NCBI GenBank assembly: GCA_016290335.1
Contig: JAEETM010000055.1
Coordinates: 1-22,001, forward strand
Length of the DNA: 22,001 bases
Reading direction: 5' to 3'
Source of the DNA: Treponema sp.
GTDB lineage: Bacteria > Spirochaetota > Spirochaetia > Treponematales > Treponemataceae
Shown: positions 1-20,398 of the stretch, piece after piece
How the letters are laid out: every line of letters begins with the position of its first letter
Numbering within the stretch: the stretch's first letter is position 1
Notes under the pieces: model-generated
Told to the model about the DNA's origin: nothing
What the model saw: the letters and a program-made list of their open reading frames with translations, nothing else
Database searches by the model: none
Program-made: the position numbers and the translations under genes

Positions 1-2186
1 TGCTTTTTCCGTTCATTGGCAGCTTTATACTCCTCCATTTGCTGAGGTGAATAAAAACCGTCCTTCCAGTTAAAGCGGGAACTTTCCGGCAACGGTTGAC
101 CACGAGACATTGAAGTTGAAATTGCTTTAATCTGGCTGCGGGTAACCTTAGTTTTAGAGAAATCAACAAGTATTCTCTTAAAGCCTGCCTGAGTTATGAA
201 ATTAACTTTATCTGTAATTGCAAAAGGTTCTTCCGGCATAACAAACGAACCATCTTTTGTAGAGTTAACCTTAAATACAGATTCTTCCTTGTCGGTAAAG
301 TAAGTAAAATCATAATCCTTAGGAAGCTTGAATCGCATTCGGAACAAAGCAGGATAAGCAAAAACCGGAACAAGAACTCTGCCCCGTACATTCTGCTCAA
401 AAGTATCTTCAAGGTTTCTTCTGGAGTTTTCGTAAGGCATTATAAAGGCATTTACATTCTGATTTTCAAGCCAGGAAACTGCCCAACGGTTGAACGTATA
501 AAGATAAGGTCCGCCAATCATATTTACTGCAAAAGGCTTGAGCATCTGAATGTGTGCAAGATTATTTACAACAAAGTTATTAAAGCCATCTTCAATAAGC
601 TGGGAAAGCTCGTTTTGCAAAGCTTCTTCCTGAGCCGCAGAACAGAACGGATCAAGGGAAATGTAAATCTGCTTTTTTGATACAGGAAGTACTGTTTTAT
701 GATTAAGCAAATCGTAAGAGGTTTCGGAATTATACTCTACTATGTATCTTACAGGATTTAAGCCCTGAACAGTAAAGAAGTCTGGAATTGAAGAAACCTG
801 AGCATATACTCCTTCCGGGAAATAAGACAGCTCATTATCTTTTACAGGAGTTACATCCAGAATAGGAAGCAGTTCATCCTTTGGCTGACGTCTGTACCGG
901 CCCAAATCATTCGGCAGAATATGCTGGTAACGCTTTGAACCCGATTTTATCTGAAGCAGATAAACGCTGTCGCCAACAGTAAAGCCTTTTGGAATATCAA
1001 TCCAGCGTTTTTCATTATCATCAATTTCTACAGTTCTGACTTTATGGCTTTCGCGGCCCGTATCATCTTTTTTATGAAGACGGATTGAATCCCCCGGATC
1101 CGGCTCATAGCTGCCACCTTTCAGACAGGCAAGCTGAATTGAAATGCGCTCACCTTCTGCATTCTTTCCAGCCCCACTCTGATTAAGAGCCTCCACCAAC
1201 TCCTTCGGCGCAGGCTTAGTTGCAGCAATATTTCCAAGGAAAATACCCGTTCCGCCCGCCTGCTCCGGGTTCAATATTTTTTCAGCCGCATTATCAACCC
1301 CGTCATCAAAGCTTTTAAAATCATACCAGTATGTTGTTTTTGAGCGCGCAAAGTCCGAAGCAAGCATTCGTTTACCGGCCGCAATCGAACCTTTTTTATC
1401 TTCCTGATAATGGTCAATTACATAGCGGTAAGCAGAAACAACACTTCCAACATATTCCGCACTTTTCATTCGTCCTTCAATCTTAAACGAATCTACACCG
1501 GCTTTAATCAAATCCGGTATTTTATCAATCAGCTGTAAATCGCATGGAGAAAAATAATACCCCTGTTCTATTCCGCCTGGAACCTCTGCTGTATAAAAAC
1601 GACGACACGCCTGTGCACACATTCCCCTGTTTGCAGATTTACCGCCAAGGAAGCTTGAAAAAAGACAAAGGCCTGATTCACTTACACAAAGAGCTCCGTG
1701 AACAAAAACCTCAAGCTCTGCCTGAGTTTCCTGCTTTATTTTTGCAATTTCACTTAAACCAAGCTCGCGGGCAAGAACTGCACGCTTTACACCGTTTGCC
1801 TGAAGCAGCTTAACAGCATTTGCACTTTCTACATTCATCTGGGTAGAAGCATGAAGCTCCAGATTCGGAAAAAACTCCTGTGCCATACGCATAATGGCAT
1901 AATCCTGAACAATAAGGCCATCCGGCTTTACCTCGTTCAAATATGAAAGGAATCTGTAGAGGCGTTCGGTTTCGCGTTCTTCGCAGACTGTATTTACCGT
2001 AACGTAAATCTTTTTTTTCTGTCTGTGGACTGACTCAACGGCGGCTTCAAACTGATTCCAGGCAAAGTTGGTGGTTCTCATTCGGGCGTTAAAGCTTTTG
2101 AGACCTAAATATACGGCATCGGCACCTTCACCGATTGCGGCATCGAGAGATTCTATATTTCCCGCGGGGGCTAGTAATTCTACCAT
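1..2186 (-). CDS. U32-family peptidase-like protein (RlhA/TrhP type), 3' end outside the window
   Basis: The frame is open from an ATG at 2186 to the left edge, about 728 codons with no stop, so the C-terminus is missing. It starts MVELLAPAGN, the usual opening of U32 proteins. It carries the family signature (E-x-F-x2-G-A-L-C-x4-G-x-C-x-F-S) followed by a GMCAQACR cysteine cluster. Proteins of this family once called collagenase-like peptidases are now known to hydroxylate tRNA or 23S rRNA (TrhP, RlhA), with cysteines that hold an iron-sulfur cluster. The length well beyond 450 residues, with a long C-terminal extension, fits the RlhA (23S rRNA C2501 hydroxylation) type better than the short TrhP type, but I cannot separate them firmly. 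No Shine-Dalgarno precedes the ATG; a TACATT hexamer lies 7 nt upstream, so the mRNA may be leaderless. A MITE-like element lies just upstream. Confidence 0.85.
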   Translation of the reverse strand, partial: MVELLAPAGNIESLDAAIGEGADAVYLGLKSFNARMRTTNFAWNQFEAAVESVHRQKKKIYVTVNTVCEERETERLYRFLSYLNEVKPDGLIVQDYAIMRMAQEFFPNLELHASTQMNVESANAVKLLQANGVKRAVLARELGLSEIAKIKQETQAELEVFVHGALCVSESGLCLFSSFLGGKSANRGMCAQACRRFYTAEVPGGIEQGYYFSPCDLQLIDKIPDLIKAGVDSFKIEGRMKSAEYVGSVVSAYRYVIDHYQEDKKGSIAAGKRMLASDFARSKTTYWYDFKSFDDGVDNAAEKILNPEQAGGTGIFLGNIAATKPAPKELVEALNQSGAGKNAEGERISIQLACLKGGSYEPDPGDSIRLHKKDDTGRESHKVRTVEIDDNEKRWIDIPKGFTVGDSVYLLQIKSGSKRYQHILPNDLGRYRRQPKDELLPILDVTPVKDNELSYFPEGVYAQVSSIPDFFTVQGLNPVRYIVEYNSETSYDLLNHKTVLPVSKKQIYISLDPFCSAAQEEALQNELSQLIEDGFNNFVVNNLAHIQMLKPFAVNMIGGPYLYTFNRWAVSWLENQNVNAFIMPYENSRRNLEDTFEQNVRGRVLVPVFAYPALFRMRFKLPKDYDFTYFTDKEESVFKVNSTKDGSFVMPEEPFAITDKVNFITQAGFKRILVDFSKTKVTRSQIKAISTSMSRGQPLPESSRFNWKDGFYSPQQMEEYKAANERKK

Positions 2187-14249: not shown

Positions 14250-14315
14250 GCCGCTACCCTCCAACAATTAAGATGAATATACTATACTAACTACTATACT
14301 TCCTTGCTCTTACTA

Positions 14316-14344
14316 TTGACTTCTGAGTTTTCCGGGCTTATTTT
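14316..14344 (+). promoter_or_regulatory. possible promoter of the PARG-like/AAA+ unit
   Basis: TTGACT (14316-14321; 5 of 6), a 17-bp spacer and TATTTT (14339-14344; 4 of 6). The ATG at 14352 follows the -10 by 7 nt, so the transcription start would be at or next to the start codon. Upstream, ACTATACT occurs twice (14281-14288 and 14293-14300), a possible regulator site. Confidence 0.45.
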
Positions 14345-14351
14345 ATATCCT

Positions 14352-15392
14352 ATGAAAAGCTTAGCCTTGAAATATATAAAAGAATCCGCCTTTACCTCTG
14401 TACGAGTTCAGGACCTGATGAACGAAAAACTCTTTCCCACCGAAGAGTTTGAAAATCCAAAAAAAGAAGCCATCTATAACGAAGCCCGCCCCTATCACAA
14501 AAACCAGCGCGGACTTATACGAATGTCAAAATATGTTTTTTCCGAAACAGCCGATATAAGGCGAAAGTGCCTTAGCAAACATGGACTTGAACTTTCCTTT
14601 TCTGATATCCGCTATGATTACGGACTTGCCGATTCGATTATTATTGATAATGATGTGTTTGCCAAACCTAAGGCTCCAATTATTTCTGATGATAAAAAAA
14701 CGAAAATCTGGTACGTCAACTTTGCTTCCGAAAAAGCATTCACTGAATGGGGAAGCATGTCCACCAGCCAGGAAGCCTTTATGACAGTAGAAATGCCCCT
14801 TCTCCACAAAGCAAGCCTTTACTTGGATAAAGAAGCTACGTTACAATCAAGTCAATCTTCCACAATCTCGCACACCAAGTTTAATTCTTACGTCGTCTTC
14901 AAGCCCACAGAAAAATCTGAATTACGTTATCTTCCCAGCCCCCTTCTTTTTGAAAACGTACCTCAATGGGTAAGCATTTTTGGTGGTCAAAAACATAACG
15001 TAACATACGACAAAAAAAACAATGTAATTTCAATGATGTCCCCATTTGGCGGCGACGGAACTTACAAGGAGAAAGAAATCCTCTTTCTCTTTCTCACTCT
15101 TTTTACAGGATTTGGCGGAATCATAAAACGCGGACAAAAAGACAAATGTCCTTACACAGAAGTTCACACCGGCAACTGGGGCTGCGGCAATATGCGCAAT
15201 AACAAGGAACTGATTTACCTTGCCCAGATTTATGCAGCAGATCTTTTCGGAATAGATAAGTTAGTCTTTCATAACATAGACAAAAACCTTATGGCAAACG
15301 CAATCGAAAAATGGAAGGCTCTTCCAGATAAGCTTTCATTTACTGACATTGTTACAATCTTCACTGATTATAATTTCACATGGCGGGAATAA
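14352..15392 (+). CDS. PARG-like (poly(ADP-ribose) glycohydrolase fold) protein, possibly catalytically altered
   Basis: I prefer ATG 14352 (MKSLALKYIK, 346 residues) over the in-frame ATG 14304, which lies upstream of a TTGACT box. The C-terminal part reads HTGNWGCGNMRNNKELIYLAQ (272-292), very close to the conserved TGNWGCGAFGG ... L..L.Q motif of the PARG catalytic domain. Around residues 122-150, NFASEKAF ... GSMSTSQEAF sits where PARGs have an NFA/DFAN strand, a Gly-rich loop and Q-E-E. Here Gln140 and Glu141 remain, but the second acidic residue is Ala142 and the triple Gly is gone. It may bind ADP-ribose without cleaving it, or be a divergent enzyme. No signal peptide, so cytoplasmic. 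An AAA+ gene follows 20 bp downstream. Confidence 0.6.
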   Translation: MKSLALKYIKESAFTSVRVQDLMNEKLFPTEEFENPKKEAIYNEARPYHKNQRGLIRMSKYVFSETADIRRKCLSKHGLELSFSDIRYDYGLADSIIIDNDVFAKPKAPIISDDKKTKIWYVNFASEKAFTEWGSMSTSQEAFMTVEMPLLHKASLYLDKEATLQSSQSSTISHTKFNSYVVFKPTEKSELRYLPSPLLFENVPQWVSIFGGQKHNVTYDKKNNVISMMSPFGGDGTYKEKEILFLFLTLFTGFGGIIKRGQKDKCPYTEVHTGNWGCGNMRNNKELIYLAQIYAADLFGIDKLVFHNIDKNLMANAIEKWKALPDKLSFTDIVTIFTDYNFTWRE

Positions 15393-15412
15393 AAATACAA
15401 GGAGGAAGAAAC

Positions 15413-17068
15413 TTGAAAAACACAAACACAATCCATTGGAATGTACTCAACCACATCAACGGTATCTGCGACTCACTCATAAACTGCGAGCTCTCCCCAA
15501 GACAAACAAGTCTATATCAGACAACAATTCTTCGTCTGAATGAATACTTCGGTACCTCCGAAACTCAAACCTGGATTCTCTGCTTTGCAATTTACCAGCA
15601 CTTCAACAACAATTCGCAGATTTACCCTAGCGAGTTCGCAGATTTTCTTTCTGTCAATGTTCTCAAGGTTGCGCAAATGTATAAAGATTTTCTCTATCTA
15701 AGAAAACGCAATTTAATTGATTTTACCGACACAAAATCCATCTTCTCAGTAACCTCCCGAGTAATCAAAGCTGTCCTGAACAACCAGAAGCTCTCCTTCA
15801 ACTGTGGCGAAATCAGTTATTTTGATTTTGTTGCAAAAGCTGCAAACCTTTATGAAAACAATAAGTACACCGAAAACTCCCGCGATGATCTTGTATGCCA
15901 GCTGCAATCTCTGGAAGAAGTCAACGAGTCAATTCCTTTTGTTATCCGTAGCCGCAATCTTATTCAGGATGATAAAACACGTTTTATGTTTTATGATATG
16001 TGCAACGACAGTCTTTCAGGAATGCCAAGCTATCTTTGTTCTACAATAGAGGATATCTACGAGGATACAGAAAAGTTCATTGTTGCAAAACAATTTCTGG
16101 ACGAAAAGCATATTCTTGTGACTTCCGGCCTTGTTGAGTTTGTTGAAAAAGGCAACGTGCTTGAATCGAAAGTTTCCCTCACCGAAAAAGGCAAGAAGTT
16201 TTTCCTCGATACAGATTACGAACTTTATGCCGCCAAGCTTGATGACAAAATGATAAAAAAGCCCGAAGACATACGCGCAAAAAAACTCTTCTACAGTCAG
16301 GATAATCAAAAGCAGATTGAAGAGCTTACAAAAGCACTTTCTCAGTCAAAGTACCTGCAGATTCAAAAGCGGCTTAAAGGACAGGGATTGCCATGCGGAA
16401 TTGCAGTTTTATTATACGGAGCTGCCGGTTGCGGTAAAACGGAATCTGTTTTTCAAATTGCAAAAAAGACAGGACGTGCAATTGTTCAGGTCGATATTTC
16501 CGATACAAAAAGCTGCTGGTTTGGCGAAAGCGAAAAGAAAATCAAAAAGATTTTCACCGACTACAAGGCTCTTTGCACCAAAATCACAAAGGCTCAAAAT
16601 GGACGCATGCCGATTCTTCTTTTCAATGAGTGCGATGCGGTTTTCAGTAAGCGCAAGGATGTTAACTCTTCAAATACGGCTCAAGTCGAAAACTCAATTC
16701 AGAATATCATCCTCGAAGAAATGGAAAATCTCAACGGTATTCTGATAGCCACAACTAACCTGGTAGATAATCTTGATCCTGCCTTTGAACGCCGCTTCCT
16801 TTTCAAGATTCATTTTGAAAATCCGTCTGTCGAAGCAAAAAAAGCAATCTGGCGCTACAAGCTCCCCTGGCTCACCTCAGACAAAGCCAGTCAGTTAGCC
16901 GAGTCTTACAACCTTTCCGGCGGCGAAATAGACAACATAGTCCGTAAAGCCCAGATGAAAGAAATCGTTAGCGGCACCCGTCCCACCTTTACCGACATCA
17001 CCGAAATGTGTAAAGTTGAAAAACTGAACACTACTCAAAGCTCCCGAAGAATGGGCTTTGCGGTTTAA
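15413..17068 (+). CDS. AAA+ ATPase with N-terminal winged-helix region
   Basis: The likely start is TTG at 15413: AGGAGG lies 7 nt before it, whereas the in-frame ATG 15380 overlaps the previous gene and lacks a ribosome site. This gives 551 residues. The N-terminal 300 residues are helical, ending in a winged-helix-like stretch (SGLVEFVEKGN ... VSLTEKGKKFFLD). The AAA+ core has Walker A GAAGCGKTE (336-344), Walker B LLFNECD (402-408, with Asn where most have Asp), sensor 1 ATTN (446-449), arginine-finger-like FERRF (458-462) and sensor 2 GGEIDN (503-508). It resembles Cdc48/FtsH-like bacterial ATPases of unknown role that share the FNEAD and AFERRF motifs. It probably remodels or unfolds a partner, possibly the PARG-like protein or its target. 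Confidence 0.8.
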   Translation: MKNTNTIHWNVLNHINGICDSLINCELSPRQTSLYQTTILRLNEYFGTSETQTWILCFAIYQHFNNNSQIYPSEFADFLSVNVLKVAQMYKDFLYLRKRNLIDFTDTKSIFSVTSRVIKAVLNNQKLSFNCGEISYFDFVAKAANLYENNKYTENSRDDLVCQLQSLEEVNESIPFVIRSRNLIQDDKTRFMFYDMCNDSLSGMPSYLCSTIEDIYEDTEKFIVAKQFLDEKHILVTSGLVEFVEKGNVLESKVSLTEKGKKFFLDTDYELYAAKLDDKMIKKPEDIRAKKLFYSQDNQKQIEELTKALSQSKYLQIQKRLKGQGLPCGIAVLLYGAAGCGKTESVFQIAKKTGRAIVQVDISDTKSCWFGESEKKIKKIFTDYKALCTKITKAQNGRMPILLFNECDAVFSKRKDVNSSNTAQVENSIQNIILEEMENLNGILIATTNLVDNLDPAFERRFLFKIHFENPSVEAKKAIWRYKLPWLTSDKASQLAESYNLSGGEIDNIVRKAQMKEIVSGTRPTFTDITEMCKVEKLNTTQSSRRMGFAV

Positions 17069-17240: not shown

Positions 17241-17639
17241 GCAGAAGTCTCCGCAAGGGACTACAAAAAAAACTGCAAAGCATTGTATGATTATATAAGT
17301 TACGTTGAGCGAGTAAAAATCAACCAGAAGAACAATCTGAATATAAAAGATGCCGTTGATGAAGCCGTAAACTGGGCAATTAAGGAAAACCTGCTTGAAG
17401 GCTTTTTCAAGGAACATAAAGCGGAGGTAGAAGCCATGATTTTAACAGAATTTGATAAAGACTTATACGATAAAAACCGCAGAAAAGAAGGCTATGATGA
17501 AGGAGCCCAAGCAAAAGCTGTTGAAGTAGCAAAAAATCTTTATAACAACGGCGTTTCTATCGAAATTATTGCAAAATCACTTGATATGACACTTGAACAA
17601 GTGCAAGAGATTGTAAAAAGTAACGAAACTACAGTTTAA
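17241..17639 (+). pseudogene. 3' remnant of a PD-(D/E)XK (Rpn-type) transposase/nuclease
   Basis: The open part from 17241 encodes about 132 residues, including LYDYISYVERVKINQKN, IKDAVDEAVNWAIKENLLEGFFKEHKAEVEAMILTEFDKDLY and a GYDEGAQAKAVEVAKNL ... SLDMTLEQVQEIVK tail. This is the C-terminal half of recombination-promoting nuclease/putative transposase proteins: a helical block, an EG-rich stretch, then a small helix-turn-helix-like end. The nuclease domain with its catalytic PD-(D/E)XK residues is absent. The same frame continues upstream from about 17070 (FDHFTERGDFEWTDEYFYLFYN), interrupted by stops at 17220 and 17238 beside a hairpin repeat, so that may be further remnant. A TTG at 17283 could start a short product, but it lacks a Shine-Dalgarno, so expression is doubtful. 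Confidence 0.6.
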
Positions 17640-17650
17640 TTCTTTTCTAC

Positions 17651-17734
17651 GCAAGGTATTGCCGTTCGTAGTATAGCACCGCTACCGCGGCCGCACTACC
17701 GTGCTTGGCCTGCCTACTCCCTGCCATACCTTGC
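17651..17734. repeat. GC-rich inverted-repeat block downstream of the candidate variable region
   Basis: GCAAGGTAT (17651-17659) and ATACCTTGC (17726-17734) are exact inverted repeats around a very GC-rich 66-bp core. Inside are two 4-bp stems with the same tetraloop, CCGC/GCGG (17679-17690) and GCAC/GTGC (17693-17704), and an outer AGCAC/GTGCT pair (17675-17705). On the coding (minus) strand both loops read GGTA. The block lies 16 bp past the stop of the lipoprotein gene, where diversity-generating retroelements carry hairpin or cruciform sites. Confidence 0.6.
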
Positions 17735-17749
17735 TTTCCCCTATGGGTG

Positions 17750-20398
17750 TTACTGAGCGGAGCGAACAAGCCGGAAACCGTAGGCGTTGCAGCGGTAGTA
17801 CGGGTAGTAGCGGCTCCGATTAGCGGTACGACAGTAAGTGGCGTCGTTGCTCCAGCTACCGCCGCGAAAGAGGCGGTCAGAACCCGACGAAGCGCCGTGC
17901 GGATTAGATATGCTGTCACTGCTGTAAGATTTTGAATTCCAGTCCCAGCACCATTCCCATACATTTCCGCTCATATCATACAGTCCAAGCTCATTAGCTG
18001 CTTTTTTCTTTACTTCATGTGTCTTACTGCTGCTGTTACTTGTATACCATGCTACATTGTCGATACTGTTGCTTCCACTGTAAGTATACCCCTTACTCTG
18101 TTTACCACCTTTTGCAGCATATTCCCATTCTGCTTCAGTTGGTAATCTGTAACCATTAGCAGTCCAATCACAGGTAATTGTTCCGCTTATACTGTTACCA
18201 TTATGAGGAGTGTAATTCCAACTGCTCACACTTGTACTACCGTTTACTGAATAACAAGGAGTTAAACCTACAGATTCACTGTACTTGTTACAGAAATATA
18301 TTGCATCATACCAGCTTACATTCTCTACCGGTCTGTTAGCCTGTACTTCACCGCTTGCAGGACTTGATGTGAAATTGCTTGGATTACTTCCCATAACAGC
18401 AACATATTCACTCTGTGTAAGTTCGTGATCACTAATATAGAAGTTGCCCAAGGTAACACTATGTACAGGTTTCTCATCACTTTCTCCTGATTCACTTCCC
18501 ATACTAAACGTTCCGCCTTCTACAAATACAAAGCCGTCATCAGGTCCCCACTTAGCATAGAGTGTAATGCTTTTAGTTACACTCAGCCCTGCACTGGCTT
18601 TAGTTTCTTCATCATAACTGCTGTTAGTATACCAGCCAAGGAATTTCCAGCCACTTTCTGTAAGCTCAGGTAATTGTGATGAAGTAAGCTTTTCGCCCTC
18701 ACCTACAATTATTGTGGTTGGAGTTTTACCGTATGCCGTAACATAGTTTACTGTGCATTCCTTCAGCCATTTTGCTTCTAATGTAATATTGTCTTTAACC
18801 TTATAACTTCCAGCAACAATCTTCGTAGTTCCCGAATACCAGCCCTTGAACTTATAGCCTTTGCAGGTCATTTCCGGCAGCTGGATTGTACTTAAAACAG
18901 CTCCTTCTGAAATAAGGAAGGTATCAGGTACATCGCCTTTTTCATTCACGTAGCTAACAGAATAGAATGCGCTGCCACCCGGACCGTAGAAGGTATCACT
19001 GTCTGCGGTTATGCTGTAGTAGTCAATTTCACCTTCACGAAGGTATGCTTCAAATCCTTGTGTAACTGAATAAGCCGTATCTTCTGAATGATTCTGTCCA
19101 CCAAAAGGTATGTAATTCAATATCTCGCTGCCGGAAGTAACTACTGGTCTGAGTGTAAGGGATGCTGGTTCTACCGTATAATACATTTCGGTACTGTCAT
19201 CAAGCTGTGAAGTTACTGTTGCACCGCTGAATACGAGCATATAAGGCTTATTACTTCCAAACGTTGGTACAAAAATTGGTTTGGCAGTATTATTCGGAAT
19301 TGCAAAGAACTGGTTATTACCATCCGGGTAGATTACAAATCCATTCAACGCAGCGTTATTATTATTTTCAGGATTCTTGGCCGCAATCGTAATAGGAATT
19401 GTTCCTTTAAAGAATCTGAGCGGTATATAGTCGCTCCATTCCTGTCCTGTAAAAGGATTCTGTATTGTAACGGAAATACCTGTATCTATGTAAGGTACAT
19501 CAAGTTCACCATATACAACTGAAAGATTAACTGTTTTAGTTGCACCACCGGCAAGCGTTGAGATTGTAAATCCTGACAGGTCTGTGCCATCTGTTGCTTC
19601 TATGATAAGGTTTGCATTATCTGATTTTACAAAACATGCTGATGTTGAACACTTGTTTTCGCTTATATTCGTAATTGTAAGCTGCATATTATAAGTTTTT
19701 GCATTGTTACCAAACAAATATCCGTTATCCTTCTGATCATCGCTGATTGTTCCCGTAATTTTAAGGTTGTAATCTTTCTTTCCTACAAGAGCAACTGTAC
19801 CCATATAATCGCCTGAGTTACTGATGTTCAGTCCTGAAACTACCACGAGGTCATTTCCGTTTTCAATTTCTACTGTCTGTGTGTCATTTGCGGTTGGAGC
19901 CGTAAACTTAAGGTAACCTTCAGCATCACTTTCGGAAAGGCTTTCAAAATTGCTGTATTTTGTTGATTTTCCCTTGCCTTTTATTCCGCTCATTGCAGTA
20001 CTGGCTGCTCTTCCTGTTGTAAAACCTACAAGCTTGAGGGAATATTCAAGGTTTGCGCCGCCTTTACGGAAATATGGAATATTGTTGCACACCATTACAC
20101 TGTCGGATCCTTTTGTAAACGTTCCAAGTTCTGTTACTGCAAGAGTACTTTCGTTTGAAGATGTAATAGTATAACTGTTTTTTCCCTGCACTACGCTTGT
20201 TTCCAGAACCTCATATTCCTTTCCGTTGTCCATTCGCACCCAGGTTCCCCAGAAATAATCATTTGCAGGAACTGCATTCTCATCTGGATTATCCTGTGGA
20301 TTCGGGTCAGTTTTTGCATTTGATTCCTGCTGACATCCTGTTAAAAAAGCAGCAAAGATAAAACCAAACATTAAAACAAAAGGAATAAACTTTTTCAT
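17750..20398 (-). CDS. lipoprotein with InlB-type repeats and C-terminal FGE/C-type-lectin-fold domain, candidate DGR target
   Basis: ATG 20398 follows AAGGTGA at good spacing; the product has 882 residues. MKKFIPFVLMFGFIFAAFLTGC gives a clear lipobox with Cys22. Residues about 30-470 are beta-rich and unassigned. Two Listeria-Bacteroides (InlB_B-type) repeats follow at about 475-545 and 545-616, each with F.GWY and a closing AKW. From about 620 to the end is an FGE-sulfatase domain: FVFVEGGTFSMGS, RPVENVSWYDAIYFCNKYS, GYRLPTEAEWEYAAKGG, GLYDMSGNVWEWCWDW, RLFRGGSW and YGFRLVRSAQ. True FGEs have two active cysteines in this last stretch; here only Cys856 remains and the other position is Asn851, so it is probably a binding rather than enzymatic module. 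A surface or periplasm-facing ligand binder is likely. Confidence 0.85.
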   Translation of the reverse strand: MKKFIPFVLMFGFIFAAFLTGCQQESNAKTDPNPQDNPDENAVPANDYFWGTWVRMDNGKEYEVLETSVVQGKNSYTITSSNESTLAVTELGTFTKGSDSVMVCNNIPYFRKGGANLEYSLKLVGFTTGRAASTAMSGIKGKGKSTKYSNFESLSESDAEGYLKFTAPTANDTQTVEIENGNDLVVVSGLNISNSGDYMGTVALVGKKDYNLKITGTISDDQKDNGYLFGNNAKTYNMQLTITNISENKCSTSACFVKSDNANLIIEATDGTDLSGFTISTLAGGATKTVNLSVVYGELDVPYIDTGISVTIQNPFTGQEWSDYIPLRFFKGTIPITIAAKNPENNNNAALNGFVIYPDGNNQFFAIPNNTAKPIFVPTFGSNKPYMLVFSGATVTSQLDDSTEMYYTVEPASLTLRPVVTSGSEILNYIPFGGQNHSEDTAYSVTQGFEAYLREGEIDYYSITADSDTFYGPGGSAFYSVSYVNEKGDVPDTFLISEGAVLSTIQLPEMTCKGYKFKGWYSGTTKIVAGSYKVKDNITLEAKWLKECTVNYVTAYGKTPTTIIVGEGEKLTSSQLPELTESGWKFLGWYTNSSYDEETKASAGLSVTKSITLYAKWGPDDGFVFVEGGTFSMGSESGESDEKPVHSVTLGNFYISDHELTQSEYVAVMGSNPSNFTSSPASGEVQANRPVENVSWYDAIYFCNKYSESVGLTPCYSVNGSTSVSSWNYTPHNGNSISGTITCDWTANGYRLPTEAEWEYAAKGGKQSKGYTYSGSNSIDNVAWYTSNSSSKTHEVKKKAANELGLYDMSGNVWEWCWDWNSKSYSSDSISNPHGASSGSDRLFRGGSWSNDATYCRTANRSRYYPYYRCNAYGFRLVRSAQ
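17780..17851 (-). other. candidate DGR variable region (codons 850-873)
   Basis: Of the 24 codons for residues 850-873, 17 end in C. Those at the usual variable sites all have the form NNC: AGC AAC GAC at 850-852, TAC at 855, AGC CGC TAC TAC at 862-865, TAC TAC CGC TGC AAC GCC TAC at 867-873. This is what adenine-directed mutagenesis of AAC codons yields. Invariant-looking codons between them (C856 TGT, R857 CGT, N860 AAT, R861 CGG, P866 CCG) lack the pattern. Expected flanks RGGSW and YGFRLVR are present. Confidence 0.5.

Follow-up and report, generated by a model that had tools for sequence, protein, structure and literature searches.

A probable C-terminal variable region in a TvpA-class putative lipoprotein of a gut Treponema: a candidate remote target of a diversity-generating retroelement

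Introduction

The closest described counterparts of the locus reported here are the variable proteins of Treponema denticola. The report on that species describes one diversity-generating retroelement (DGR) with up to seven FGE-domain targets, most of them located away from the core; 62% of the DGR targets are predicted lipoproteins, and both remote targets that are served and targets that are leftovers occur (PMC4891356). A second point of reference is Bordetella phage BPP-1, in which homing requires a hairpin with a GRNA loop 3′ of the variable region (VR); across the phages considered there, the hairpin stems are 7–10 bp long and lie 4–34 bp from the VR (PMC3240598). Targets that do not adjoin the reverse transcriptase (RT) could not be detected by the method of a large metagenome survey of DGRs, by its own account (PMC8144416). 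Our literature search on the rumen and on remote targets, the coverage of which was incomplete, returned no title on DGRs of rumen Treponema.

Here we describe the end of a gene within a 22,001-nucleotide stretch of Treponema DNA, referred to below as the window. The gene end has the anatomy of a DGR VR, and we compare it with homologues, with template repeats (TRs) of relatives, and with the T. denticola and phage systems.

Results

The candidate target gene resembles those of T. denticola variable proteins

Two features define the candidate target:

17750..20398, minus strand: FGE-domain lipoprotein-like gene of 882 amino acids, from the ORF and its translation; DGR target candidate.
17762..18538, minus strand: FGE-sulfatase domain (C-type lectin fold), residues 621–879, from Pfam and the sequence match to 2y3c.

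Pfam assigns an FGE-sulfatase domain (3.6e-52) and Flg_new repeats (4.3e-17) to the protein, and an LTGC lipobox in its signal peptide was read by eye from the translation only. T. denticola variable protein 1 (2y3c), which we take to be TvpA, is the solved structure nearest in sequence (E 1.7e-66, residues 629–878). The FGE-sulfatase domain is shared with formylglycine-generating enzymes, but the best enzyme chain, which is the next PDB chain after 2y3c, gives a weaker match (4e-18 vs 1.7e-66). Two features of the TvpA family, an FGE/C-type lectin domain homologous to a T. denticola variable protein and a VR at the C terminus, are found here. The likeness to the DGR variable proteins of T. 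denticola extends to lipoproteins being common among the targets, to targets lying far from the RT and TR, and to a template layout of AAY codons, represented by P0286, a template-like T. denticola protein of 50 residues in which these codons have the matching arrangement. The window differs in coming from another, gut Treponema, and its protein in having a longer N-terminal part with Flg_new repeats. The window VR is of the same kind as the T. denticola targets, in another Treponema. The best relatives found for the protein come from gut Treponema MAGs, the top one being G001 from water-buffalo rumen.

Pfam scans of 13 of the 40 listed ORFs and an AAC-density scan of the whole window found no RT, Avd or TR, in agreement with the original prediction that none lies nearby. 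Elsewhere in the window, positions 14304–17068 (plus strand) encode a PARG-like macro-domain protein (PF05028, 9.1e-07) followed by an overlapping AAA ATPase that resembles IetA (PADLOC 3.9e-27; NCBIfam score far under the cut-off), and the two are possibly a defence pair. Just past the VR, a 118-residue ORF at 17283–17639 (plus strand) matches, below the cut-off, only the C-terminal end of TIGR01784 (Rpn/putative-transposase) and is perhaps a remnant.

Extent and fixed parts of the VR

The VR and its parts were placed as follows:

17753..17900, minus strand: variable region, delimited by the TR/VR homology of five cassettes and by the GC-rich stretch; 5′ edge ± about 7 bases.
17783..17851, minus strand: variable core with 15 template-N codons (residues 850–852, 854, 855, 860, 862–865, 867, 868 and 870–872), of which 13 are NNC; homologues differ here and templates carry AAY.
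17753..17779, minus strand: fixed VR 3′ end, GFRLVRSAQ, in an IMH-like position, from a 27-mer search and from cassettes in which TR/VR identity reaches the same end.

The VR had been predicted at 17750..17870. The place was right and the length slightly short, with the cassette homology reaching about 17900 and taking in one more variable codon, residue 841. Compared base by base in five cassettes, TR/VR homology starts about 28–42 nt ahead of the RGGSW codon, and it ends exactly at the last sense codon in three of them and a few bases earlier in the other two. Of 196 genus genomes, 9 contain the 27-mer of the VR 3′ end when up to 3 mismatches are allowed; an exact 21-mer of this end had no match in viral contigs. 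The variable codons would face the ligand, an assignment that rests on the alignment to the T. denticola variable protein.

The variable codons carry the signature of AAY templates

The predicted clustering of NNC codons near the gene end, 17 of 24, is exact (codons 850–873, 17780–17851, minus strand), and NNC accounts for 61% of the last 38 codons vs 18% of the other 843 codons of the gene. Known templates have AAC or AAT at 15 positions; the codons of the window there include 13 NNC vs 4.68 expected (P 5e-6), and all 15 end in C or T (NNY) vs 12.6 expected. The expectations follow the frequencies with which this gene uses the codons of each amino acid concerned, and P was obtained by resampling. 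The gene end has what marks a DGR target, AAY-derived NNC or NNT codons inside a fixed framework. The NNC excess alone is no proof of this origin, because the whole stretch is GC-rich, framework codons included: of the 23 framework codons in the final 38, 10 are NNC as well, and GC content is 0.52–0.63 per 60 nt over 17639–17878 and about 0.40 upstream.

We calibrated the codon test on 52 ends, with ends that had fewer than 40 upstream codons dropped. In nine VRs whose TR lies on the same stretch, the medians were 14 NNC and 15 NNY codons out of 15, and eight of the nine gave P<0.01; the one true VR that failed this threshold, L092, belongs to a GC-rich gene. Among 33 terminal ends whose locus has no TR (the window included), 23 also passed the threshold, as did 8 of 10 internal, evidently cut-off VR copies; the ends that pass include the non-spirochaete L055 and L074. 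Because many TR-less and internal ends pass and L092 fails, the test is neither fully specific nor fully sensitive, and because internal cut-off VRs keep the signature, it is no evidence of present activity.

Homologues differ mainly at template-N positions

At the protein level, the homologues P0121 and P0122 share 476 of their first 480 residues, and in their last 38 residues they differ at 11 of 15 template-N positions and 2 of 23 others. Set against P0122, the window has other residues at 12 of the 15 template-N positions and at 3 of the 23 others; set against P0121, at 11 and 5, respectively. Differences between close homologues are thus concentrated at template-N positions, a comparison made on proteins only. 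At the codon level, codons that specify the same amino acid in the window and in the terminal VR of G001:C2 are identical in 24 of 27 cases within the VR and 78 of 121 in the rest of the domain (P 0.012), and for the terminal VR of G001:C12 the counts are 22 of 24 and 40 of 79 (P 0.00025). This silent-identity test of framework codons also gave P 0.012 against G005, and was not significant against G004, G085 and G047. Where the amino acid differs, the third base is kept more often in the VR than outside it in 8 of 8 pairs, with P<0.05 in seven and 0.086 for the pair of window and G085.

The G001:C2 protein has two FGE domains, with an internal and a terminal VR. Its internal VR is identical to those of P0018 and P0024 at 38/38 and 37/38 positions, vs 23/38 and 23/37 for the terminal VR, in which template-N sites are alike at 3/15 and 3/14. 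Domain exchange contributes to these terminal differences, because the second FGE domain ahead of the terminal VR is also less alike (196/243 vs P0018, 189/242 vs P0024); the N-terminus is identical to that of P0018 at 405 of 410 positions. The more distant P0026 differs from C2 in both VRs (20/37 and 22/38 identical).

The probe for templates, described below, has seven matches in G001, and the four listed all lie in long protein frames, with no template for the window VR among them; no N-rich template of the window-VR type was found in the G001 stretches examined. G001 has a DGR cassette of another type (L082 70–2319; L152 11142–11786), with a WWLRSP...VGVVPAL target, VR, Avd-like gene, TR and RT, and an end similar to this target occurs on contig C60. 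The neighbour of the RT is Avd-like, with a bAvd match under the curated cut-off. The G001 RT was considered as writer of the window VR and rejected, its template being of another type. Two close G001 paralogues (L001, L003) are both cut short by a contig end at residue 619, the start of the FGE domain, as would happen if FGE domains acted as long repeats and interrupted the assembly.

True and remote TR/VR pairs occur in the genus

We searched with a probe of 38 residues (RGGSW..GFR) that has N at each variable site, and 145 of 200 genus genomes gave matches; those listed are a mix of long protein frames and short N-rich frames, and the short N-rich frames are templates. In seven TR/VR pairs on the same locus, mismatches fall at 11–23 of 31–35 template adenines, with 0, 0, 0, 1, 4, 8 and 1 mismatches among 79–83 non-adenine positions. 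The FGE-class DGR cassettes of relatives (G085, G093, G094, G184, G104 and others) have the same VR layout and 3′ end as the window, and G085 also has the post-stop hairpins. They differ from the window in having a TR and RT beside a VR, and none of 12 distinct TRs of relatives fits the window VR by adenine-only changes, with 22–38 non-adenine mismatches. At its 32 non-N positions, P0239, an ORF that looks like a template, shows 5 differences from the window. In G004 (L161, about 590–690, minus strand), a template beside an RT fragment at the contig edge is shorter than the VR of the nearby FGE gene, which reflects decay or an assembly artefact.

Remote pairs were sought in stretches from 17 genomes, in which only ends caught by the motif entered the comparison. 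The template of G184 is at C1:457312, on a contig of 941 kb, and a VR on contig C10 differs from it at 22 of 32 adenines and 0 of 94 other bases; a second VR on C10 has 7/94 non-adenine mismatches, and two further ends have 20/94 and 33/94. In G104, ends on C8, C17 and C7 have 3/98, 0/98 and 1/98 non-adenine mismatches to the template on C15, with the C17 and C7 VRs near contig ends and the C8 VR about 17 kb inside. Further ends, in G094, G073, G117, G150 and G176, have 13–36 non-adenine mismatches to the template; among the stretches compared, G135 and G024 have VR-like ends and no TR, and G079 has neither. One template in G184 and one in G104 therefore fit distant genes, with five remote VRs in all, and many like ends are unmatched by the template seen. 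A DGR-type RT related to that of G001 was found in 49 of 200 genus genomes, with weak and broken matches counted and some carrying internal stop codons, and 42 genomes have both an RT relative and a probe match (lists compared by hand).

Stem-loops follow the stop codon

Three structures lie downstream of the VR:

17693..17704, minus strand: hairpin GCAC[GGTA]GTGC after the stop codon, identical in G085 and with a paired change in G047.
17679..17690, minus strand: hairpin CCGC[GGTA]GCGG, identical in G085 and G047.
17651..17734, minus strand: outer 9-bp stem with arms 17726–17734 and 17651–17659, enclosing both hairpins, from the fold and from comparison.

The post-stop DNA of the window folds 3.0 sd better than shuffled sequences, none of 200 shuffles being as good. 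After the proven VR of G085, the same two hairpins stand at the same place inside a 9-bp outer stem of other sequence; in G047 the first hairpin is GTAC[GGAA]GTAC, the paired change, and the second is that of the window. Such GRNA hairpins were seen in 3 of 12 ends examined (window, G085 and G047), and among these 12 they are absent after the proven VRs of G093 and G094. The window resembles the BPP-1 target in that a candidate counterpart of its GRNA-loop hairpin lies downstream of the VR. It differs in that its two hairpins have 4-bp stems and GGTA loops within an outer stem and lie 48 and 62 nt past the VR, even the nearer one outside the 4–34 range of the phage set, and the BPP-1 target is a phage tail protein.

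Discussion

The anatomy of the VR, its codon signature and the 3′ elements shared with relatives were observed in the window itself, and true and remote TR/VR pairs in the relatives. The testable parts of the original prediction, which read this gene end as a TvpA-like DGR VR, held; TR/VR pairs of relatives and close protein homologues served as the material for comparison. Its two alternatives, a remote target or an orphan, we also judge to be the right pair. We think it probable, with some reserve, that the VR belongs to a TvpA-class lipoprotein and is written by mutagenic retrohoming from a TR elsewhere in the same genome. The window organism would then possess both an RT and a TR that matches this VR, each of them active, and the protein would be surface-exposed and ligand-binding. 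In the proposed mechanism, a template RNA with AAC or AAT at the variable codons would be copied by a DGR RT that misreads adenines. The cDNA would take the place of the VR, with the fixed GFRLVRSAQ end, and probably the post-stop stem-loops as well, as guides. The protein made from it would be lipid-anchored, and the binding face of its C-type lectin fold would keep changing. Counted against the remote-target reading are the lack of a matching TR among the 12 compared, the other type of TR in G001, the closest genome examined, the presence of GRNA hairpins in few ends, the distance of the first hairpin from the VR, the non-significant silent identity against G004, G085 and G047, and the persistence of the signature in internal VRs.

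It is possible, if somewhat unlikely, that the window holds an orphan: a genuine VR that was once written by a DGR, the RT and TR of which have since been lost, or a target acquired without them, now evolving as an ordinary gene. In favour of an orphan, probe matches in the genus outnumber RT relatives (145 vs 49 of 200 genomes), but many MAGs are incomplete and the missing RTs are therefore weak evidence. Leftover targets have precedent in T. denticola, where 8 of 17 isolates have targets without an RT or TR (PMC4891356). The internal VRs in relatives of G001 look frozen, and the window scans described above revealed no TR or RT. All 15 variable codons of the window are nevertheless still NNY, its framework codons are little decayed relative to G001, and close homologues differ mainly at template-N sites. 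We lean towards a target served in trans over an orphan because the codon signature is intact and because of this placement of the differences between close homologues.

A more speculative reading, which we hold to be rather doubtful, is that the VR, the fixed 3′ end and the twin hairpins make up a portable targeting unit, carried along with the last FGE domain from one lipoprotein to another and bringing each under a single remote DGR; a domain fused behind it would cut the unit off from its homing signals and freeze it. The two-domain proteins of G001 would fit this idea, with a near-identical internal VR and a diverged terminal VR (C2 vs P0018 and P0024). Against it stand P0026, with differences in both VRs, the lesser likeness of the second FGE domain, and the terminal VR of C2, which is without GRNA hairpins.

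We consider it highly improbable that no DGR was involved and that the FGE end became hypervariable by ordinary diversifying selection, domain exchange or gene conversion among paralogues, with the NNC codons owed to a GC-rich segment. FGE domains are exchanged in this family, as the nearly identical N-termini and less similar second FGE domains of G001:C2 and P0018 indicate, and both the GC-rich framework codons and the passing of the codon test by L055 and L074 would agree with such an origin. Selection alone, however, does not explain why third bases are kept where first and second bases have changed, nor the silently identical framework codons, and other members of the genus have true TR/VR pairs with this layout. 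Two longer words of the VR core turn up elsewhere, one of 19 bases in the VR of G068 and one of 17 bases in G150, but these words consist of TAC codons and fixed CCG/CGC codons, in G150 also of part of TGC, and outside these two the longest word shared with the variable core at the loci compared is 12 bases, equal to the control. Gene conversion from a donor copy within the window was rejected, the longest shared word being 10 bases.

Our preferred reading, a VR served by a remote DGR, suggests that remote targets are recognisable from their own anatomy, that is, from the codon pattern, the fixed framework and the post-stop stem-loops. In two-domain relatives of the window protein, the cut-off internal VR offers a natural control for the terminal VR. 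The findings also suggest that several lipoproteins share the service of a single template in gut Treponema.
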